Assembly: GCF_000297025.1 (NCBI RefSeq)
Contig: NZ_CAKD01000023.1
Coordinates: 1 to 64,000, forward strand
DNA length: 64,000 nt
Reading direction: 5' to 3'
Source of the DNA: Lactobacillus pasteurii DSM 23907 = CRBIP 24.76
GTDB taxonomy: Bacteria; Bacillota; Bacilli; Lactobacillales; Lactobacillaceae
The notes below the pieces were generated by a model. That model made no database searches. It saw nothing but the letters and a program-made list of their open reading frames with translations, and was not told where the DNA came from. The position numbers and the translations under genes are program-made. Every line of letters begins with the position of its first letter. The first letter of the stretch is position 1. Below, in pieces: positions 23,336 to 36,512 of this stretch.

Positions 23336-24217
23336 TTATAAACTTTCAAAATCTATCTTTTCGATGTCAATCATCCAAGCGATCGCAATTGACTTTTCAC
23401 CTAGGTGTGTAGCTATAACTGGACTAAACTCAGCTACATCTACTGGCATACCTGGAAATTCCGAATTGATGAAGTCATGGATTTCATCTGCTTGCTTTAA
23501 ATCATTGGAATAAAAGACAAATAAGCGTAGCTTGTCTTTGTATGACAAATCCGAAGTGCGGTCAAGAGCTATCTTTTCAATTCTCGATACTGCTCTCTTC
23601 ATGGACCGTATCTTGTCAAATGCGACGATTTTTCCATCTTCAAATGTTAATAATGGCTTAATATGCAACATGGTGCCGATAAATGCACCCGCATTGCTTA
23701 ATCGACCACCTCTACTCAAGTTCATTAGATCGTCAACAACAAATAATTCGTCGATTGTGTCTCTAATCTTGTCTAGCTTTGCAACTATTTCATCAGGCTT
23801 AAAGCCCAACTTGATCATTTTAGCTGCGGCTAAAACCAAGTATCCTTGTAATTTAACAGTCATCTTTGAATCGTATGGATACAAGTTATACTCAGGATTA
23901 TTATGAGCAATGTTTTGTAAAGTAGAATTGTATCCTGAAATACCGCTTGATAGAGTAATATCAATAATAGCCTCATAGCCTTCGGCATGTAATTTATTGT
24001 ATAACTCAATCATTTTTCCCATACTTGGTTGGGATGTTTTTGGAAATGCGGCACCATTTCGTTGCATTTCAAAGAGTTTTTCAGATGTGATATCGATGCC
24101 TTCCATGTATTCTTTATCTCCGATGATAACCGGAATAGGCATCACAATTATGTTGTTCTCTTCAATTTCTTTTTGAGTTAGAACACTAGTACTATCGGTC
24201 ACTAATGCAATCTTCAT
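23336..24217 (-). CDS. DegV family fatty-acid-binding protein
   Basis: About 293 residues from ATG 24217 (MKIALVTDSTSVL); AAGGGG lies 6 bases upstream. DegV motifs: TDST at the N-terminus, KTSQPSMGKM, ITLSSGISGYNST, FVVDDLMNLSRGGRLSNAGAF. DegV/FakB-like proteins bind a fatty acid and in Staphylococcus present it to the kinase FakA for phosphorylation. No fakA is visible. An extended -10 (TGCTATAAT) sits at 24255-24263 on the minus strand. A second degV lies at 32.4 kb. Confidence 0.9.
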   Translation of the reverse strand: MKIALVTDSTSVLTQKEIEENNIIVMPIPVIIGDKEYMEGIDITSEKLFEMQRNGAAFPKTSQPSMGKMIELYNKLHAEGYEAIIDITLSSGISGYNSTLQNIAHNNPEYNLYPYDSKMTVKLQGYLVLAAAKMIKLGFKPDEIVAKLDKIRDTIDELFVVDDLMNLSRGGRLSNAGAFIGTMLHIKPLLTFEDGKIVAFDKIRSMKRAVSRIEKIALDRTSDLSYKDKLRLFVFYSNDLKQADEIHDFINSEFPGMPVDVAEFSPVIATHLGEKSIAIAWMIDIEKIDFESL

Positions 24218-24254
24218 AGAAAACCCCTTCATTATTCGATTTCATATAGAAGGA

Positions 24255-24903: not shown

Positions 24904-26601
24904 TTGGCATTTGATGGATTATTTATACACTCTCTATTACAATCGATTTCCCCTATCCTAGAAGGTGGGAAACTTTCAAAAATCTACCAACCATTTAACC
25001 AAGATTTGATTTTTACTTTTCGTAAGAATCGACAAAACCAACAATTACTAATTTCTGCTAATGCACAATCTCCAAGAATGTACCTTACTAATATGTCAGT
25101 TACTAATCCGGATAAAGCACCTACTTTTGTAATGGTTTTGCGAAAATACTTGGAAGGATCTATTCTTTTAAAAATTGAACAAGTAGGATTGAATCGAATT
25201 ATCAATTTCCACTTCAGCAATCGCAATGAATTGGGTGATCAAGTTCAGCTGGTGTTGTCTGTTGAGCTTATGGGACGCCACAGTAATGTGATTTTGTATA
25301 ACCAAGGTACAAATAAAATTATTGATCTGTTAAAACGCATTAACCCCGATGAAAATCGTGCTAGAATGTTGCTACCAAAGGCTAATTATGAATTGCCTCC
25401 ATTAAAGCCGGGAATAAACGGGCTTACTTTGACAGAAGATCAATTCAATGAGCTTTTAAAAGAAAATCCAGCTTTGCCTGAATTTGTATCTAAATTTGAT
25501 GGTTTGGATAAAGATGATCGAATGGAATTCTTAGGATATTTAGAAGATGAATTATCTTATAACTCCTTAAAGATATTCTTTGATCATTTCAAGCGAGTTA
25601 AAGGTGCATACACACTCCTATCGCCTAATAATAAAAGAAAGATTTTTACCTATTTGCCATATCATTTAGATTTACAAAAAGAATCTTTTGATGAAGATTT
25701 AAACCATGCGTTGGATGAATTCTACCAATATCAAGCCAATCGTGACTGGGTAAAGCAAAAGGCTGGCGCAGTTGAAAAAGTTGTCAAAAACGAGCAGAAA
25801 AAATTAGCTAAAAAACTCGTTAAGCTTGAGAATCAATTAGATTTAGCAGAAAACTCTGAAGGCTATCGAATCAATGGCGAAATTTTGAATGCAAACTTAT
25901 ATAGTGTTAAGCCTGGGATGACCTCAGTTAAGCTCCCAAATTATTACGAAAATAATGCCTTGATCGAAATTAAATTGGACCCTGCCCTCTCTCCAGCTAA
26001 AAATGCTCAGCGGTATTTTGTAAAGTACAAAAAATTGCGTGATTCAATCCGTCATATAAATGAACAGATCAAGATTACCAATAGCAACTTAAATTATTTT
26101 GATTCTATTCAAACTGCAATCGATAACGCAGAACCAGATGATATTGACCAAATTCAAGATGAATTGATTAGCCAAGGTTATATTAAACGTCAAGATAAAA
26201 ATAAAAAGCGTAAGACAAAAAAGATCTCCGAAAAGAGCATTAATCGCTTTAAACTAACTTCTGGTAAAGTAGTTCTTGTTGGTAAAAATAATTATCAAAA
26301 TGATTGGCTTACTTTCAAAAAAGCTGACAAATCTGATTATTGGTTCCATGTTAAAAATATGCCTGGATCCCATGTAATCTTGCAAGACTCCGATCCTAGT
26401 GAACAAGATATTAAAGAAGCTGCAGAAATAGCAGCATACTTTTCAAAGGCAAGAGATTCAGCCCATGTTCAAGTAGATTATGTACTTGATAAACGAGTTA
26501 AAAAGCCTAACGGTGCAAAGCCAGGTTTTGTTATTTATACAGGACAAAATTCTATCGAGGTTACACCTAAGCAAGATGATGTAGAAAGCAAACGAATCTA
26601 G
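24904..26601 (+). CDS. rqcH: NFACT family protein RqcH (fibronectin-binding-protein-like)
   Basis: 565 residues from TTG 24904 with AGAGG upstream. NFACT-N domain (MAFDGLFIHSLL, VELMGRHSNVILYN), long coiled-coil middle (about residues 270-430) and C-terminal NFACT-R domain (VVLVGKNNYQNDWLTFK, DYWFHVKNMPGSHVIL). RqcH binds obstructed 50S subunits and adds alanine tails in ribosome quality control. Older annotations call it a fibronectin-binding protein, but there is no signal peptide. Convergent with carB. Confidence 0.93.
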   Translation: MAFDGLFIHSLLQSISPILEGGKLSKIYQPFNQDLIFTFRKNRQNQQLLISANAQSPRMYLTNMSVTNPDKAPTFVMVLRKYLEGSILLKIEQVGLNRIINFHFSNRNELGDQVQLVLSVELMGRHSNVILYNQGTNKIIDLLKRINPDENRARMLLPKANYELPPLKPGINGLTLTEDQFNELLKENPALPEFVSKFDGLDKDDRMEFLGYLEDELSYNSLKIFFDHFKRVKGAYTLLSPNNKRKIFTYLPYHLDLQKESFDEDLNHALDEFYQYQANRDWVKQKAGAVEKVVKNEQKKLAKKLVKLENQLDLAENSEGYRINGEILNANLYSVKPGMTSVKLPNYYENNALIEIKLDPALSPAKNAQRYFVKYKKLRDSIRHINEQIKITNSNLNYFDSIQTAIDNAEPDDIDQIQDELISQGYIKRQDKNKKRKTKKISEKSINRFKLTSGKVVLVGKNNYQNDWLTFKKADKSDYWFHVKNMPGSHVILQDSDPSEQDIKEAAEIAAYFSKARDSAHVQVDYVLDKRVKKPNGAKPGFVIYTGQNSIEVTPKQDDVESKRI

Positions 26602-26603
26602 CT

Positions 26604-26672
26604 AAAAAAAGATTGACCAAATGATTGTCTGTTTTATAAACAGAACGATCTATCATCGGTCAATCTTTTTTA
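26604..26672. terminator. Bidirectional terminator rqcH / carB
   Basis: AAAAAAAGATTGACC and GGTCAATCTTTTTT enclose an inner CTGTTT/AAACAG hairpin. Confidence 0.85.
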
Positions 26673-26675
26673 TTT

Positions 26676-29600
26676 TTAAATTGGTTGTGTAGTTAATGCT
26701 AGAGATTCTAATACATCTAGAATCAATTCAGTTGTTTCAATACTTGAGAATACTGGAACATGAGTAAATAGCGCTTGATCTCTAATTCTAATAGCATCTT
26801 CACTAGCAATATCGGATAAGTTAGTGATATTTACGACCATCACAATCTTATGTTGTTGTATTCGTTCAAGAATTTTATGCGAATTTTCGTGCAATTTTTC
26901 TACTACTCCAGTCGTGATCCCTGCTTCAGCGAAAATATTAGCTGTCCCTTCTGTGGCGATCAGCTTAAATCCTAATCTATCGAATCTTCTAGCTAAATTA
27001 GTTACTCGCTCTTTATCTTCGTCACGTACAGAAATAAAAATTGTCCCATAGCTAGGAATATGTAAGTCACTAGCTTCATATCCCTTATATAATGCCTTAG
27101 CCAGCAACGTATCGCGCCCCATTACTGAACCAGATGATTTCATTTTTGAATCAAATGTATTATCACTTGAATAGTTAATGTAAGAAAAGACTGGCATTTT
27201 GACATGAATTAAGTTGTTTGCTTTCCAAAGTTCTTCCTTAAAACCTAGCTCTGTCAAACTCTTACCTGCCAAAATTTCAACTGCACATGAGGTGATATTC
27301 TTGCCAAGTGATTTAGAAAGAAATGCGACATTATGACCAGCATAAGGTTTTATCTGTAGAAGATATAAAGTATTTTCGACTTTCAAAAAGTGAAGATTAT
27401 AAATCCCACGAACATGTAAGTTTTTAAGCAAAGAGATAGTAATCTGCGCTAATTCCTCTTGACCTTGAGCTGTTAGATTTTGAGGTTGGAAAACTGCGAT
27501 AGAGTCTGATGCATGGGAGCCTGTTTGTTCAAGATGTTCAATAATACCTGGAATACTAGCATTCTCACCATCTGAAATAGCTGTTACTTCATATTTATTT
27601 CCTTCAATAAATCTAGAAATTGTAATTTCATCTAGATCATTTTCCATCAAGTATTTGTCAACTGCAGGTAGATCATAAACTACAGCGGATTTTTGCTTGA
27701 TTGATCTACTGAAACCACCAATCAAAATTGGAAAATCATATTTTTTAACGAAGTCATAAATCTCAACAGGATTTCGTGAAATCAAAGAAGGCACTCGGTT
27801 AACATTGATCTTGGTATCAGCGAACATCTTATTGAGTAGATGCATCTTTGGTGCTTCTTCTCCCATTACACTAACGCCATGTTCGATCAACTCTTGACTT
27901 AAAGCATTAACCTTTTTACCAGAAAATTGCAACAGCACTTGATCGATCTTTTCAATCTTGATAATGGATAAAATCGATTCCATTGTAATTGGTTCAAAAT
28001 AAACTCGATCAACATTTTTATAGCGAGTAGATACGGATTCACTATTGTTTGAAAGTAAAATAGTAGCATATCCTAATTTATGTAAAGTCTCTGCCGCATG
28101 AGCTATCATGTAATCAAATTCACTCGTCACTGAAACTTGAAGTGGCAACATACCAATGATTAATACTTTCTTTTGTGCATTAATTGGCTCTAGTTCATTT
28201 TCGACATTATAGGCACTATAAAATGCTTCAAAGTTTGGTCGATAGAATCCAGCTGAACCATCAATTTGAATAAATGATGGTGAAATATTATTTTGATCGA
28301 TATACTGATCAACTACTTTGCTATCCAATTGTCGCAATTTGGCAATTAGCTCATTTGAAAAGCCATAAGTTTTACATTCTAATAGTAAAGTTTGATCTAA
28401 TTCATCAGTTGCTTGAACTTTTTCGGCTAATTTGACAATATGTCTAAGTTTTTGGTAGTAAATGGGATGCAAATTGATAACATCCTCAAGTTCCGCATAA
28501 CTTGCACCTTTATAAATAGCAACCATAATTTTGATTAGGTGTAACTCATCGAAATCCTTGAGTTCAAGCAGCAATTCTTGCTTATCTTTTTGCCAATATT
28601 TCTGAATTGCAGTCCAAGCTACATCTAGATCAATCGTGGAATATAAAGCCTTTAGGAATGCCGTTTCAAAATTGCGTCCAATACCGATCGCTTCTCCACT
28701 CGCTTGCATCACATTATTTAACTTATAGTGATTGATTCCTGATTCGGATAAAGACCAATACGGCATTCTAACTGATATTGTATCAAAGGTTGGCTCAATT
28801 GAAGCATTTAATCCAGTCATTGGGTCAACTATTTCATTCAATTGATAACCTATCGCTATTTTGGCAACAACATAACCAATGCTGTATGTGCCAGTTCTTT
28901 GTGCCCAAACTGCACTTCTAGTTAACCTTGATTTTACGGTTAAAACCTTGGCTTGAATCTGCGTACCATGATGCTTTATTGCAAAGTGAATGGATATAAT
29001 GCCCACGGCTTCCAATTTGTTTGCAATTAGTCTTGATAATGCACGCAATTCTTGGATCTGGTCATTATTCAAGGTTAAGGCAGGAATAACGATCGCTGAA
29101 TCGCCAGAATTAATTTTTACCGATTCCATTGAGTCAGTAAAATTGACAAAGACCATATTTCCTAATCGGTCTCGCACGACACTAACGATTACTTCGCCCC
29201 ATGATGATAAGTCCTCGACTAATTGATAATTTTTCCAAGAGAAATCATCATTCTTCCGTTCCCGCTTAAAAAAGTTGACCAACTTATCAGCGGTTTTGAA
29301 GTGGAAGTATTCATTATGCGTGTAGCGGTGATACTTGGTTACCATCACTGGAAAAGTGATCGTATGTTCAATCTCGTTAGAGATATCATCAACTTTGCTA
29401 GCGATCAATTTATCATTTAGTTGCCAAGAGAAGTTTACATTAAGCCCTAAATCTGCAAGAAATTTGTTACGCTTGCGTTGATCTTCCATTGTAAGCATAA
29501 GATTGTTAAGAGTAAGCAAGCGAATATGCATCTGTTGAAGAATTCCATCTTGTAATAATTTTTTGGTGATTTTTAGACTGGTAGTTGATCCGTATGCAGT

Positions 29601-29861
29601 TATAATTGCATCCGGTTCTTCCATTCGCAAAATTCGCTTAAAAAAGTCAAGCGTCATTGGCTCAAGATAAACCGTAAGGTTTTCTCTTTTATCAGTCGAT
29701 ACTGTAGCCGGATTAGGATTGACTAGAACAACTTGAATGCCATCTTCAATTAAGGCGTCAATAGCATCCATTGCCAACAAGTCCATTTCTGCAACGCTAC
29801 CAACTAGAGATGGTCCCGACCCTATTATTAAAACTTTATCTAAATCATTTTCTAAAGGCAT
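26676..29861 (-). CDS. CarB-like protein: carbamoyl-phosphate synthase large-subunit fold with both active sites lost
   Basis: 1061 residues, the normal CarB length, with no stop or frameshift. N-half start LIIGSGPSLVGSVAEMD and the C-terminal MGS-like allosteric domain (GTIFISVRDEDKERV, KLIATEGTANIFAEAG) are well kept. The catalytic residues are not. In the first ATP-grasp, E. coli Gln285, Glu299 and Asn301 become His292, Thr308 and Lys310, Arg169 becomes Thr175, and the GGxGGG loop is YTHNEY (180-185). In the second, Gln829, Glu841, Asn843 and Arg845 become His824, Gln836, Lys838 and Tyr840. It follows carA by 7 bp. It should not make carbamoyl phosphate; a regulatory or scaffold role is inferred. 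Confidence 0.85.
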   Translation of the reverse strand: MPLENDLDKVLIIGSGPSLVGSVAEMDLLAMDAIDALIEDGIQVVLVNPNPATVSTDKRENLTVYLEPMTLDFFKRILRMEEPDAIITAYGSTTSLKITKKLLQDGILQQMHIRLLTLNNLMLTMEDQRKRNKFLADLGLNVNFSWQLNDKLIASKVDDISNEIEHTITFPVMVTKYHRYTHNEYFHFKTADKLVNFFKRERKNDDFSWKNYQLVEDLSSWGEVIVSVVRDRLGNMVFVNFTDSMESVKINSGDSAIVIPALTLNNDQIQELRALSRLIANKLEAVGIISIHFAIKHHGTQIQAKVLTVKSRLTRSAVWAQRTGTYSIGYVVAKIAIGYQLNEIVDPMTGLNASIEPTFDTISVRMPYWSLSESGINHYKLNNVMQASGEAIGIGRNFETAFLKALYSTIDLDVAWTAIQKYWQKDKQELLLELKDFDELHLIKIMVAIYKGASYAELEDVINLHPIYYQKLRHIVKLAEKVQATDELDQTLLLECKTYGFSNELIAKLRQLDSKVVDQYIDQNNISPSFIQIDGSAGFYRPNFEAFYSAYNVENELEPINAQKKVLIIGMLPLQVSVTSEFDYMIAHAAETLHKLGYATILLSNNSESVSTRYKNVDRVYFEPITMESILSIIKIEKIDQVLLQFSGKKVNALSQELIEHGVSVMGEEAPKMHLLNKMFADTKINVNRVPSLISRNPVEIYDFVKKYDFPILIGGFSRSIKQKSAVVYDLPAVDKYLMENDLDEITISRFIEGNKYEVTAISDGENASIPGIIEHLEQTGSHASDSIAVFQPQNLTAQGQEELAQITISLLKNLHVRGIYNLHFLKVENTLYLLQIKPYAGHNVAFLSKSLGKNITSCAVEILAGKSLTELGFKEELWKANNLIHVKMPVFSYINYSSDNTFDSKMKSSGSVMGRDTLLAKALYKGYEASDLHIPSYGTIFISVRDEDKERVTNLARRFDRLGFKLIATEGTANIFAEAGITTGVVEKLHENSHKILERIQQHKIVMVVNITNLSDIASEDAIRIRDQALFTHVPVFSSIETTELILDVLESLALTTQPI

Positions 29862-29868
29862 TGTTAAA

Positions 29869-30924
29869 TTACTCCATCATATCTAAAAAAGTCGTAAATA
29901 TTTTATGGGCATCTAAACTTCCTGGGGCTCCTTCAGGATTAAAAGCCGTAGCAACAATCTTTTTATCTTGAAAGACATAGCCAGCTAGTAATTCTGTATG
30001 TAAGTCATAGTACTCTTGACTCATATGATCTTTGATACTATCTGGGAGAACTAATTGATCAATATTCATTGCCACTTGCCATAGCTCATTAGTCCCCTGT
30101 TCAACAACTGGGTAGTTAATTCCGTTAAAAATATGTGGTAGGTCAATCAACTCATATTTTAAGTAGTCGCTGATTGCTAAGAATCCCAACCCTATTCCTA
30201 AAATTGGACAGTTACCTAAATAATGATCAAAAATAGCCTGCAAGTTTTTGAGGACTTCTTGAGGTTTGCCCGGTCCATTTGAAATTATGATTCCATCCGG
30301 ACGAATGTTTTCTAAATCATTAACACTGGCATTATAAGGCAAAACAGTAACGTTTACTTGTTTTAATGACAATTCCCGTAACATTGAGTGTTTCAATCCC
30401 AAATCAATAACGGCTACAGTCTTGCCAACATTTGGGGCAGCGTAAGCATTTTTAGTCGATACAAGTGAAGACTTATTTTTAGGCAAAACTAAGGCACGAA
30501 TTTGATCAAATGCATGCTCATCGTTTGTATCCATAATTGATGCTTTGATCGTCCGCTTTTCTGTCAACTTATGAACCAATGCTCTTGTATCAACATTGCA
30601 GATTGCAGGAATATTCTTTTCACTTAAAAAGGTTTGTAGATCCTGAAAGGCAGGATTATCAGTAATGTTGATGGCAATATCCGAAACAATGATTCCTTTG
30701 ATTGCTGGATCTATACTTTCATAATCAATGGCATTGATTCCCACATTACCAATCATTGGCGTAGTAAAAACCAATATTTTTCCAGCATTAGTTGGATCTG
30801 TTAAAGCTTCTTGGTAGCCGTAATTTCCAGTTTGAATTGCTAATTCACCGGTAGAAATTATACTAGCTCCCATACCATCACCAATAAAAGAACTACCATC
30901 TTCCAAAATCAAATATCTTTTCAT
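29869..30924 (-). CDS. CarA-like protein: small-subunit fold with glutaminase Cys and His lost
   Basis: 351 residues, full length. The N-terminal domain matches CarA (MKRYLILEDGSSFIGDG, TGNYGYQEALTDPTNAGKI, CNVDTRALVHKLTEKRTIK). In the class I amidotransferase domain the nucleophile motif GICLGH reads GIGLGF, with Gly245 in place of Cys269 of E. coli. The catalytic YHPE motif reads FNPE (Asn329 for His353, Glu331 kept). The FGHRG and NHGY motifs are also gone. It cannot hydrolyse glutamine by the known mechanism. It starts 10 bp after rluD and is followed by the equally altered carB-like gene. Confidence 0.87.
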   Translation of the reverse strand: MKRYLILEDGSSFIGDGMGASIISTGELAIQTGNYGYQEALTDPTNAGKILVFTTPMIGNVGINAIDYESIDPAIKGIIVSDIAINITDNPAFQDLQTFLSEKNIPAICNVDTRALVHKLTEKRTIKASIMDTNDEHAFDQIRALVLPKNKSSLVSTKNAYAAPNVGKTVAVIDLGLKHSMLRELSLKQVNVTVLPYNASVNDLENIRPDGIIISNGPGKPQEVLKNLQAIFDHYLGNCPILGIGLGFLAISDYLKYELIDLPHIFNGINYPVVEQGTNELWQVAMNIDQLVLPDSIKDHMSQEYYDLHTELLAGYVFQDKKIVATAFNPEGAPGSLDAHKIFTTFLDMME

Positions 30925-30934
30925 GATTCCACGC

Positions 30935-31840
30935 TTACTTGTTTCTAAGTCTAATTAATGTTTGTTCAAAAATCTCCGGAACATCAACAGAAAATTCTAG
31001 CCATTCACCACTAGTTGGTTGATTAAATCCCAATACTTTTGCATGTAAAAACTGACCATTGCCTTTAAGTGTTTTTCTTGGTCCATATAAAGGATCCCCA
31101 GCAACTGGGTGGCCGATATAAGCCATGTGAACTCTAATCTGGTGAGTTCGGCCAGTTTCTAATTGACACTGAATCAAACTATATCCTTTAAACTGTTCTA
31201 AGACTTTAAAATGCGTCACTGCTGATTTGCCATTTTCAACTACAGCCATTTGCTTTCGATTTGAAGGATTTCGTCCAATTGGAGCGTCAATTTTACCAGC
31301 TGATTCGCCAAAATTACCATGAACAATTGCTAAATATAGTCGCTTATTCAATTTATGAGCAAGTTGATCTTCTAAAGATTCTCTTGCCTTAGGGTTTTTA
31401 GCAATCATCAACAGACCGGAAGTATCTTTATCAATTCTATGAACGATACCTGGGCGAAAACCTTCAGGACTAGCTGCCAAATCCTTGGTGTGATAAAGCA
31501 ATGCATTGACTAAAGTATAATTTGGATGACCTGCAGAGGGATGCACAACCATGCCTTGAGGTTTATTAACTACGATCACATCCTGATCTTCATAAACAAT
31601 ATCTAATGGAATATCTTCTGCTTCTACATTCAAAGGCTCTAATGCAGGAACGTTCACAACAATTTTATCCCCTGCTTGCACTTTATACGATGCCTTTTCC
31701 TTTTTATCATTCACTAAAATGTTTTGGCTATCAATCAATTCTCTGATTCGAGTTCTTGAAAGATCAGACAATTTTTCAGCAATAACCTTGTCTAATCTTC
31801 CTTTTTCGTCTTGAATAACTAATTCATAACTATTTGACAT
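30935..31840 (-). CDS. rluD: RluA-family 23S rRNA pseudouridine synthase
   Basis: 301 residues from ATG 31840, with AAGGAAA upstream; a TTG at 31858 is in frame but would include it. N-terminal S4 RNA-binding domain (RLDKVIAEKLSDLSRTRIRE), catalytic domain with HRIDKDTSGLLM (catalytic Asp), and GRTHQIRVHMAYIGHPV. Overlaps the end of lspA by 11 bases, so translation is coupled. lspA-rluD is the conserved order; in Bacillus the pyr operon follows. Confidence 0.92.
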   Translation of the reverse strand: MSNSYELVIQDEKGRLDKVIAEKLSDLSRTRIRELIDSQNILVNDKKEKASYKVQAGDKIVVNVPALEPLNVEAEDIPLDIVYEDQDVIVVNKPQGMVVHPSAGHPNYTLVNALLYHTKDLAASPEGFRPGIVHRIDKDTSGLLMIAKNPKARESLEDQLAHKLNKRLYLAIVHGNFGESAGKIDAPIGRNPSNRKQMAVVENGKSAVTHFKVLEQFKGYSLIQCQLETGRTHQIRVHMAYIGHPVAGDPLYGPRKTLKGNGQFLHAKVLGFNQPTSGEWLEFSVDVPEIFEQTLIRLRNK

Positions 31841-32294
31841 TATTTTCTTTTCCTTCAATAAAAATTAGATAAATAAAAATTATTCCAACGCCAATCGTAA
31901 TGGCAGAATCAGCAATGTTAAAGATATTGAAATGTACAAAATCCAATTGGATCATATCAATAACATACTTTAAATGTAAACGATCAATGAAGTTACCAAT
32001 TACTCCACCTAGAACTAACGCTACACCCCACTTGAAGAGAGCGTTGTTTTCTTTAGAGCTTAAAATATAATAAACGCAGATAACTATAGCTACAATACTG
32101 ATAATGTAAAATAGCCACATTTGTCCTGGAAGAATGTTCCAAGCAGCACCATTATTTTGTAGATAATTAAAAGAAATCAATCCTGGAATAATTGAATGAA
32201 CTTCTCCAATTTGGTAATTAGTAGCTATGTAAGCTTTAAGACCTTGATCTAAGCCAACTGCGATAAGACTAATCAAAAAATAAATATATTTCAT
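31830..32294 (-). CDS. lspA: Lipoprotein signal peptidase LspA
   Basis: Aspartyl protease with four membrane helices that removes lipoprotein signal peptides. Motifs: DQGLKAYI, NYLQNNGAAWNIL, LVLGGVIGNFIDRL (first Asp), FNIFNIADSAITIG (second Asp). I prefer ATG 32294 (154 aa); GTG 32306 is in frame but only two bases after AAGGA. Confidence 0.93.
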   Translation of the reverse strand: MKYIYFLISLIAVGLDQGLKAYIATNYQIGEVHSIIPGLISFNYLQNNGAAWNILPGQMWLFYIISIVAIVICVYYILSSKENNALFKWGVALVLGGVIGNFIDRLHLKYVIDMIQLDFVHFNIFNIADSAITIGVGIIFIYLIFIEGKENNVK

Positions 32295-32412
32295 ATTACG
32301 ATTCACAATCCTTATAACCCATTCTTTTTGTACTAATTAATTATAGCAAATATTTTCTAATCACACTTTTTATATTAGAATGAAAATAAGTAAAAGAATT
32401 GAGGCATAAAAA

Positions 32413-33312
32413 ATGAAAATTGCAATTTTGACAGACAGTTCAGCTTATTTAACTAGTCAACAACTTGAAGAATACAAAATAGATGTTATTCCTATTCCGC
32501 TCATTTGGGATAATCAAATTTATCGCGATATGATTGATATAAAATTTGAAGAATTCTACCATAAACTATCTGAAGCAGAGAATTTGCCAACTACTTCTCA
32601 GCCATCTATTGGAGACTTTCAAGAATATATCGATCGCTACGTTGAACAAGGGTATACTGATGTGATTGTCATCACTATCTCAAGTGGTATTTCTAGTTTC
32701 TATAGTACATTAGCTGCTGAGAAAAATAATGAAAATAGAATAAAGATTCACCTATTCGATTCAAAGGTTACTTGTGCCGGCTTAGCTCATGAGGTATTGC
32801 TAGCAGCTAAATTGGTTCAAGCTGGTGCTGACGCAGATACTATCATCAAATATTTGACTGATTTTAGAGATACTATTAAGGTAAGATTTGTCGTTGATGA
32901 TCTAAAGTACTTGCAAAGAACAGGTAGATTATCAAATACGGCTAGCTTTGTTGGAAGTATGCTTAAGATAAAACCTATTCTGGCAATGGATGTCCAAAAC
33001 GAAGGAAAGATCGAAGCCATTGCTAAGGAAAGACAATATAAAAGAGCATATCAACACATCAAAAAAGACTTTGCCAATAGCATCGCTTCTGTTTCATATC
33101 CAATCGAAAGCACAGTTTTTGATGCACTTGATCCAGATCGAAAATCTGATTGGTTAAACGATTATGAAGAAAGCTTTCCAACAGTAAAACTTGAAAGTAG
33201 CATCATTGGACCAGTAGTTGGCGTTCACGTTGGTCAACATGCGATCGCCATGATTTGGCATCGCGATATTGATTCTTATTTTGATGACCAAGGAAAAATA
33301 ATCGATCTATAA
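32413..33312 (+). CDS. DegV family fatty-acid-binding protein (second copy)
   Basis: 299 residues. MKIAILTDSSAYLTSQQL, LPTTSQPSIGDFQ, ITISSGISSFYST, FVVDDLKYLQRTGRLSNTASF, and GPVVGVHVGQHAIAM near the end. It is a paralog of the 23.3-24.2 kb gene with many differences, so a different acyl preference is plausible. Ribosome site GAGGC. It stands alone between divergent lspA and a bidirectional terminator. Confidence 0.9.
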   Translation: MKIAILTDSSAYLTSQQLEEYKIDVIPIPLIWDNQIYRDMIDIKFEEFYHKLSEAENLPTTSQPSIGDFQEYIDRYVEQGYTDVIVITISSGISSFYSTLAAEKNNENRIKIHLFDSKVTCAGLAHEVLLAAKLVQAGADADTIIKYLTDFRDTIKVRFVVDDLKYLQRTGRLSNTASFVGSMLKIKPILAMDVQNEGKIEAIAKERQYKRAYQHIKKDFANSIASVSYPIESTVFDALDPDRKSDWLNDYEESFPTVKLESSIIGPVVGVHVGQHAIAMIWHRDIDSYFDDQGKIIDL

Positions 33313-33314
33313 GC

Positions 33315-33373
33315 AAAAACTATGATCTCAGCATTACTATATCAATATCATAATGCTAAGATCATAGTTTTTT
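33315..33373. terminator. Bidirectional terminator after the second degV
   Basis: AAAAACTATGATCT with AGATCATAGTTTTT and inner AGCATTA/TAATGCT. The right end overlaps the stop region of the next minus-strand gene. Confidence 0.85.
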
Positions 33374-33725
33374 ATTTTTCAATTCTCAACAACATGTATT
33401 TCTTGATCGAATTTAATTGTAATCGATACACTTTAAAGAATTTCCATGAACCGATCAGTTCAGGTTCTTGATTGATTTGCCTTTTCTTTGAATAAGGCAA
33501 TTTTAGATACTTATCATTATAAAATGAAGAAATCCAAGTATAAATGAAGGCCATTAAAGCTACAGCCAAAATACCAATAGCCAGCCAATTAATCTTTTCT
33601 GTTCCTTCATAAGTTATGACAAGTCCTACAAAAAGGATAACAAACAACCAACTGTAGTAAATTATGCCGGCTGTTCCCAAAAACACAAAATGTTTTTTGT
33701 TAGTAGTTTTTTCCATATATGGCAT
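33372..33725 (-). CDS. Small membrane protein, possibly EbsA family
   Basis: 117 residues with two membrane segments (about 18-37 and 47-66) and a basic cytoplasmic tail. The pattern YYSWLFVILFVGLVI followed by a second helix and an N-rich tail resembles EbsA-like proteins of lactic acid bacteria, but this is a weak match by eye. It starts 2 bases after the metallophosphoesterase stop, so it is the last gene of that operon. Confidence 0.55.
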   Translation of the reverse strand: MPYMEKTTNKKHFVFLGTAGIIYYSWLFVILFVGLVITYEGTEKINWLAIGILAVALMAFIYTWISSFYNDKYLKLPYSKKRQINQEPELIGSWKFFKVYRLQLNSIKKYMLLRIEK

Positions 33726-36136: not shown

Positions 36137-36512
36137 CAATGTGAATTTCTATAAGCCACGTTTTGTTCTAGTGATTTTGGCAAATCACTGTCTGCAGCCA
36201 TCTATCTTTGAATAAATCAACCTGATCTTTAGTTCAATTCCTTAGATCAAGACGCCCCCACCAAATTTGGGTTGCACGCTCGCAGGGTTTACCTCGTTCC
36301 ACCAGAGTCGTTTCCGACTCTGCTACGTCACTGTGGCACTTTCCAGGATACTAATGCATGTCAAAATGATTTAGCACGTTCTCCGCCGTGATTATAAAAA
36401 TCCTCCAGCTTATTAGGCTGAATACGAACACTACAAGCATCGCAGCTTGTGCGTGCGTGGACTTTCCTCAGCTAGCTTATAGCTAACCGCGACTGCACAA
36501 AACTCACACTAT
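36137..36512 (-). ncRNA. rnpB: RNase P RNA, class B
   Basis: On the minus strand the RNA shows the universal core: GAGGAAAGTCC near the 5' end, ACAGTGACGTAGC, GTGGAACGAGGTAAACC, and AACGTGGCTTAT near the 3' end. The ends (TGTGAGTTTT and AAATTCACA) pair as helix P1. A promoter and terminator flank it. Position between gpsB and ypsC-like genes is the conserved Firmicute location. Ends are estimated from the promoter and P1. Confidence 0.95.

Follow-up and report, generated by a model that had tools for sequence, protein, structure and literature searches.

Here we describe a pair of adjacent genes from Lactobacillus pasteurii DSM 23907 = CRBIP 24.76, located in a 64,000-nucleotide stretch of DNA (positions 1 to 64,000 of contig NZ_CAKD01000023.1, assembly GCF_000297025.1; hereafter the window), which encode full-length homologs of both subunits of carbamoyl phosphate synthetase (CPS) and which, judged by alignment to the Escherichia coli enzyme, have lost all three catalytic centres. 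We call the products psCarA, the CarA-like small subunit (351 amino acids; 29869–30924, minus strand), and psCarB, the CarB-like large subunit (1061 amino acids; 26676–29861, minus strand). Both were recognized as open reading frames with homology to CarA and CarB, they are separated by 7 bases, and neither frame is interrupted—an initial annotation, made from the sequence alone, had likewise described two intact adjacent frames of 351 and 1061 codons.

The psCarA–psCarB pair, its catalytic centres and its surroundings

Pfam and PDB comparisons place the pair in full-length, collinear homology with CarAB (PF00988, PF00117, PF25596, PF02786, PF02787, PF02142; PDB 1bxr): subunits, domain order, length and effector residues are the same, with the glutamine amidotransferase (GATase)-bearing small subunit and the six-domain large subunit of a glutamine-hydrolysing CPS. 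The domains of psCarB follow the order preATP1, ATP-grasp 1, oligomerisation, preATP2, ATP-grasp 2 and MGS. The differences lie in the active sites—the Cys and His of the glutaminase are gone from the pair, as are the metal site and the glycine loop of each ATP centre, all of them present in E. coli CarAB. With E. coli K-12 CarAB as the residue reference (its CarA is our locus L204), psCarA has Gly245 at the position of the nucleophile Cys269, Asn329 at that of the catalytic His353, and leucine at the glutamine-site position Gln273 (E. coli numbering). In psCarB, ATP site 1 carries His292, Thr308 and Lys310 in place of Q285, E299 and N301, and ATP site 2 carries His824, Gln836 and Lys838 in place of Q829, E841 and N843; the roles of these ATP-site residues are presumably those of E. 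coli. Every residue number in the initial annotation proved correct in this alignment, as did its report that both glycine loops are gone.

Mammalian CPS1 (PDB 5dot) is a further homolog. In CPS1 the glutaminase Cys is naturally replaced, both ATP sites are kept, and the enzyme is active with ammonia; in the pair, by contrast, every catalytic site is gone. Protein family models disagree on the pair: it falls below the cut-offs of two curated models (TIGR01369, 645.5 against 1027; TIGR01368, 257.5 against 307.35), whereas NF003671 and NF009475 accept it as CPS despite the lost sites, and an annotation pipeline based on the latter two would name it so.

The source genome (1.9 Mb in 30 contigs) also holds the second, normal carAB that the initial annotation had proposed to look for. 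This copy, on contig C14, retains Cys, His and both E-x-N sites and belongs to the cluster pyrR-pyrB-pyrC-carA-carB, with pyrD upstream and pyrF and pyrE on the other strand. Two observations concern canonical copies elsewhere. In one Lactobacillus group (G011, G016, G012, G036, G006, G034), a second PyrR gene (for example at L114 9783–10139) lies directly behind the canonical carB; its product is 64–68% identical to the PyrR of the window genome, and the gene is broken in G031. At L062 (G300), the canonical CarB reads as a pair of neighbouring frames, 675 and 347 amino acids long.

Upstream of psCarA, and directly adjoining it, is rluD (pseudouridine synthase; 30935–31858, minus strand), preceded by lspA (signal peptidase II; 31830–32306, minus strand), which heads the run lspA-rluD-psCarA-psCarB; both are named by homology. 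On the far side, a convergent gene for NFACT (fbpA/RqcH-like; 24904–26601, plus strand) marks the end of the locus. Between psCarB and NFACT, the printed sequence contains an inverted repeat flanked on each side by runs of A and T (26602–26675, assigned to neither strand), a probable two-way terminator; Rfam gave only chance-level matches to this hairpin, and it was absent from the terminator-pattern matches. A second intergenic hairpin at 33302–33382 resembles it, again with only chance-level Rfam matches. An RNase P RNA of class B (RF00011, 297.8 bits) is found at 36147–36504, and two proteins that we take to be DegV-like are encoded near either side of the locus (23336–24232 and 32413–33312). 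A promoter scan returned 30 promoter-like sites against 31.3 in shuffled sequence, i.e., no excess. A PyrR attenuator upstream of the pair was considered and rejected; there is no match to the PyrR binding site (RF00515) in window positions 26500–33500 at E values up to 5.

Conservation, selection and the parts that are kept

The initial annotation had advised a search for orthologs in related Lactobacillus genomes, and the dead CarB was found in all 36 same-genus genomes, at 50–67% identity where full length, so it is no accident of one genome. The frame is full length and uninterrupted in 33 of the 36; two genomes hold partial copies (G001, where the piece starts at base 12 of its contig, and G032), and in G021 a stop after about residue 956 splits the protein. 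A CarA-like frame precedes the dead CarB in 41/41 loci examined (L005–L045, in genera g1, g45 and g57; L045 is partial).

The ratio of nonsynonymous to synonymous change (dN/dS) was calculated by the pairwise Nei–Gojobori method with our own script, for 12 pairs with fewer than 0.55 synonymous differences per site, several of which are close relatives. It was 0.00–0.071 for psCarA across the 12 pairs; for psCarB it was 0.021–0.064 in the nine pairs with a synonymous distance (dS) of at least 0.03, and 0.055–0.137 in the remaining three, which show next to no synonymous change. The neighbouring genes, where dS exceeded 0.01, gave 0.025–0.198 (rluD) and 0.024–0.095 (NFACT). These ratios show the pair to be under strong purifying selection, comparable to that on rluD and NFACT, and the combination of an intact frame with purifying selection after the loss of catalytic residues is that of a conserved pseudoenzyme. 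The initial annotation had proposed selection for a non-catalytic job, and had named stops or frameshifts in sister genomes and a dN/dS near 1 as signs to the contrary; G021 is the only one of the 36 with an internal stop, the measured ratios are far below 1, and the proposal is supported. A recent pseudogene is rejected by the same ratios and by the breadth of occurrence. A slowly decaying relic without function would fit the loss of all catalytic residues, an evolution faster than that of live CarB, the interruption in G021 and the domains shed in a shorter form described below; it is contradicted by the low dN/dS and by that breadth, both in the genus and in the family, and by G014, whose dead CarB frame is intact although stops interrupt both pyrB and what remains of the canonical carB. 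We regard this explanation as extremely improbable.

The pair also persists where its former partners lack matches. In ten of the 36 same-genus genomes the dead CarB is the sole copy found, as the split dead one is in an eleventh (G021); completeness is 90% or more in seven of these 11 genomes without a canonical CarB match. Of the 14 genomes of genus g33, 13 have a short dead CarB and lack any match to a live one. PyrB had no match in 12 of the 39 genomes searched, and PyrR had none in six, including G003, G005 and G009 at 99% completeness. A general dependence on PyrR or live CPS is rejected on these grounds; from the gene content, the pair appears to need neither live CPS, nor PyrR, nor a complete pyrimidine pathway. 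The same absences bear on the idea that the dead subunits modulate live CPS by joining mixed complexes with canonical CarA or CarB. Full-length dead and live CarB do coexist in 23 genomes of the genus, the window's included, and the fold, the oligomerisation domain and the effector domain are kept; however, the seven nearly complete genomes and the 13 of g33 that have only a dead copy make such modulation improbable as an account of the pair.

The 23 genomes with both copies provide a same-genome control for the question of which parts are kept, here compared domain by domain over 248 pairs, with pairs at least 97% identical dropped. For the whole CarB, mean identity was 0.615 in the dead copy and 0.864 in the live one. 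In the C-terminal MGS (allosteric effector) domain, which in psCarB corresponds approximately to 26679–27065 on the minus strand (limits from the E. coli alignment), the means were 0.721 and 0.766, and the dead copy was the more conserved in 134 of the 248 pairs; for each of the five other domains this was so in at most one pair. The MGS domain is thus the best conserved part of dead CarB, but, together with the oligomerisation domain, the least conserved part of live CarB. Within it, K954, T974, T977, K993 and N1015 (E. coli numbering), which we take to be the residues that contact the effector phosphate and ribose, are invariant in 37/37 Lactobacillus rows and 2/2 sister-genus rows; in the window they are K950, T970, T973, K989 and N1011 of psCarB.

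The two ATP sites have fared differently across these 39 rows (37 from Lactobacillus, window included, and two from sister genera). Site 1 is loose—R129 is replaced by Gln, Pro or His in most rows, and among the 37 Lactobacillus rows E299 and Q285 are kept in none and N301 in one. At site 2, the replacements R715G, E761K, Q829H, E841Q, N843K, R845Y and R848H are each found in 39/39 rows. Moreover, of the 50 positions fixed (at 95%) to different residues in the 39 dead and 41 live CarB, 24 fall in ATP-grasp 2, which makes up a quarter of the protein. Because of these seven refixed residues and this concentration of fixed differences, the second ATP-grasp domain looks refitted rather than eroded; the apparently rebuilt pocket spans psCarB residues 715–843 (27333–27719, minus strand, by alignment to E. 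coli). The same two facts could be read as a sign that the pocket now runs a different reaction. No known metal ligand or glycine loop is left in it, however, and the short form has lost most of the domain, and we consider new catalysis quite unlikely. A glutamine sensor that uses the old glutaminase pocket is rejected; Q273 is Leu in 37/37 distinct long-form CarA and Glu in 48/55 short-form ones, and S47 is replaced in all 92 dead CarA.

The family-wide short form and the history of the locus

Outside Lactobacillus, a search with the window CarB gives weak matches of 22–28% identity to proteins of about 790–880 amino acids. Retained in this short form are the N-terminal half, the oligomerisation domain and some of the second half; the MGS domain is missing altogether, and so is most of ATP-grasp 2. 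A profile (A1) built from 16 short-form proteins finds it in at least 176 of 301 Lactobacillaceae genomes and in 24 genera, one representative of each having been read; the genomes were counted by hand at E values up to 1e-220, a cut that narrowly excludes G222 (2.3e-219), the top-scoring genome with a live CPS as the only one read, and the count is a lower bound, since G266 (6.4e-212) also holds a short dead pair. The bearers include Secundilactobacillus, Levilactobacillus, Furfurilactobacillus, Limosilactobacillus, Weissella and uncultured 'Lactobacillus sp.'. The long form occurs in 18 of the 301 genomes (15 in g1, two in g45, one in g57), so that one or the other dead form is present in at least 194 genomes and at least 27 genera (24 with the short form and three with the long). 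A scan of contigs was dominated by canonical CarB; of the 80 loci kept from it, the eight that resembled short forms were annotated (L255–L259, L261, L269, L283). The initial annotation had suggested that the pair may bind a ligand through its kept allosteric domain. That suggestion gains support for the long form from the near-live conservation of the MGS domain and its five invariant residues, but it can be only part of the explanation, as that domain is absent from the short form, which is the commoner one.

The small subunits divide without intermediates. Of 135 distinct CarA (rows merged when their last 200 residues were identical), Cys and His occur together in 42, and Gly with a residue other than His in 93, with no mixed case; before merging there were 138 rows, 42 against 96, in which the window's CarA was counted twice. 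Gly replaces the nucleophile Cys in 37/37 distinct long and 55/55 distinct short dead CarA of Lactobacillaceae; this Gly is invariant, whereas the former His is variously Asn, Phe, Ser, Leu, Gln, Glu or Asp. A Gly-type CarA is paired with a dead CarB in 96 loci and a Cys-type CarA with a live CarB in 41, with no exception where both subunits are present, and the two dead genes adjoin each other at all loci read. An order-wide search of 295 genomes with a DNA pattern for Gly-for-Cys CarA returned 30 loci, of which three held a CarA frame, all in genera already represented here; the pattern was too loose, and the result covers these 30 loci.

The pair sits between rluD and NFACT in most stretches read, with rluD adjoining it in nearly all (in L088 it was not seen), and the short form mostly follows lspA-rluD-pyrR. 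In genera g29, g30, g40, g43 and g51, the same place is occupied by rluD-pyrR-uraA-pyrB-pyrC-carA-carB-(pyrD)-pyrF-pyrE with catalytic CarAB (one or two genomes read each; lspA and NFACT are not in every stretch). Pieces of such an operon remain beside some dead pairs: the long-form g57 locus keeps pyrR and a uracil-permease-like gene, the g45 locus keeps the permease-like gene only, and the Rfam PyrR binding site precedes the pair at L104 (g57) and L112 (g45), two early-branching long forms. In Lactobacillus the locus is without either gene. Since other genera hold a whole catalytic pyr operon here, and since pyrR, the permease and the PyrR site are partly retained, the pair looks like the remnant of an old pyr operon that once lay between rluD and NFACT. 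No PyrR binding site was found in six short-form stretches (L086, L094, L099, L145, L147, L150) at E values up to 0.5. The g57 PyrR (L104 11529–12083) is extremely diverged, with a branch length of 4.4 and an intact phosphoribosyl pyrophosphate (PRPP) loop.

In a tree of the CarB N-terminal half, the 59 dead rows of Lactobacillaceae fall on one side of a branch with 99.8 support in the Shimodaira–Hasegawa-like approximate likelihood ratio test (SH-aLRT); the CarA tree groups 50 dead rows with a support of 87.9, which alone does not settle a single origin. Taken from these trees, a single origin of the dead lineage in Lactobacillaceae is likely, with long branches as a reason for caution. The PyrR found beside short-form pairs groups apart from that of pyr operons, in a tree with weakly supported deep branches, many weak forks and one very long row (L104).

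Of the first 32 short-form stretches taken, all but L146 have PyrR directly before the pair, and its PRPP loop is evident in the printed motifs of 30 of these 31. This adjacency favours a reading in which the dead CPS is an inorganic-carbon sensor, binding bicarbonate, carbamoyl phosphate or a nucleotide and working with the neighbouring PyrR2; such a sensor would explain the reported control of the Lactiplantibacillus plantarum pyr genes by inorganic carbon through PyrR2. In genus g55, the short form is present in 14/14 genomes (2.6–3.4 Mb), with a pyr operon in the order pyrR-B-C-carA-carB-D-F-E (L173) plus a second pyrR with the dead pair (L145). The L173 order fits that of the L. plantarum operon, and g55 is probably Lactiplantibacillus. 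Published work describes a response of PyrR2 to inorganic carbon (PMC3582564) and gives pyrR2 as lp_1782 (PMC7911632); the PyrR beside the short-form pair fits this reported second regulator, and a link between the pair and inorganic-carbon control in L. plantarum is possible. The accessible portion of the former paper concerns PyrR2 and makes no mention there of adjoining dead CPS genes. Against a carbon sensor, the identity of g55 is itself something we infer, the bicarbonate site has lost its metal ligands wholly or in part, and the pair is kept with no pyrR at the locus in Lactobacillus, at three named Limosilactobacillus loci and at two of g23. We hold this reading to be possible and rather doubtful.

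Dead CPS also occurs in another family of the order. In genus g10 of family f2, four of five genomes hold it inside a pyr operon (L185 in G045, L201 in G352, L202 in G353, L203 in G351; no CarA match was obtained in G058). The operons of G045 and G351 include pyrB, C, D, F and E, and the stretches read of G352 and G353 are without pyrB. In all four, CarA has Gly for Cys, with Asn, Asn, Asn or Gln for His, and CarB has E299 and E841 replaced; Q829 and N301 are kept in three of the four. The G045 copy is placed with its own family's live enzyme in both the CarA and the CarB tree, and on this placement a second, independent origin is probable; the approximately unbiased (AU) test on CarA does not reject joining the outside case L171 to Lactobacillaceae (p 0.237), a result compatible with a common origin. 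If the pyr pathway of g10 runs, its carbamoyl phosphate must come from elsewhere.

A dead CPS kept within a largely whole pyr operon, as in g10, would suit a purely structural scaffold, holding pyrimidine enzymes or an RNA-binding protein, for example, with no ligand sensing. There is also a precedent—the Pseudomonas pseudo-dihydroorotase PyrC' is a non-catalytic, structural subunit of aspartate transcarbamoylase. PyrC' resembles the pair in that a dead pyrimidine-pathway enzyme is retained, and differs in enzyme and fold; moreover, PyrC' assembles with a live partner, whereas the dead CPS pair survives in genomes without pathway partners. The absence of PyrB from 12 of 39 genomes searched and of a live CarB match from 13 of 14 in g33 argues against a scaffold, which would also leave the invariant effector residues unexplained, and we think it very improbable.

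Interpretation and significance

The reading that we favour, by a little better than an even chance, is that the pair is a pyr-operon remnant retained as a catalytically dead, ligand-binding regulatory CPS heterodimer, psCarA–psCarB. In this scheme psCarA and psCarB would still form a complex; the Lactobacillus MGS domain would bind a monophosphate, pyrimidine or purine, just as that of live CPS does; and the second ATP pocket, refixed and stripped of its metal ligands, may hold a nucleotide or an anion with no catalysis. Binding would reshape the complex and so signal the nucleotide state to a partner. Our best guess for the output is pyrimidine uptake or pyrimidine gene control, because the history of the locus includes a uracil permease, a PyrR site and PyrR. 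In the short form, the adjacent PyrR (PyrR2), where present, would probably supply the nucleotide sensing.

Several points weigh against a regulatory heterodimer of this kind. Effector binding cannot account for retention across the family, since the MGS domain is absent from the short form. Parity with the live MGS domain is a modest bar, given that this domain is among the least conserved of live CarB, and it could be kept for folding or oligomerisation. One effector-site residue, T1016, is Ile or Val in 37/37 Lactobacillus rows and 1/2 sister-genus rows, and the overall rate of evolution is much higher in psCarB than in live CarB. PyrR is not a constant companion: three of the 30 best-quality genomes (of 39) lack a PyrR match and yet keep the pair, and no pyrR stands beside the pair in Lactobacillus, at three named Limosilactobacillus loci or at either of the g23 loci read (it is present at three g21 loci). 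Finally, the ligand and target proposed here are both ones that we infer.

Neither a description of a dead CPS pair nor functional data on one was found in the titles and the beginnings of abstracts of the best-ranked papers, in a search that most subscription journals lay outside of, and CPS combined with pseudoenzyme gave no match in a full-text search. The part of PMC6099100 available places carbamoyl phosphate synthetase near replication termini, with no remark there on inactivity. We rate the pair as a new pseudoenzyme branch of the CPS family.

The pair represents a complete two-subunit, multi-site metabolic enzyme kept dead in no fewer than 27 genera of a family that matters to both industry and medicine. 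Because of it, strains without such an enzyme may be credited with carbamoyl phosphate synthesis in metabolic models, by annotation transfer and in transcriptome papers. The pair is also a natural experiment on the role of an allosteric domain once catalysis is removed, and a concrete candidate where a sensor is sought for the control of pyrimidine genes by carbon dioxide. A bolder version, which we consider unlikely, is a dedicated sensor complex of nucleotide and inorganic-carbon state, acting with PyrR2 or directly on pyrimidine uptake, and reached twice independently in the order; if true, it would be the missing sensor behind the carbon-dioxide-dependent pyrimidine and arginine needs of lactobacilli.

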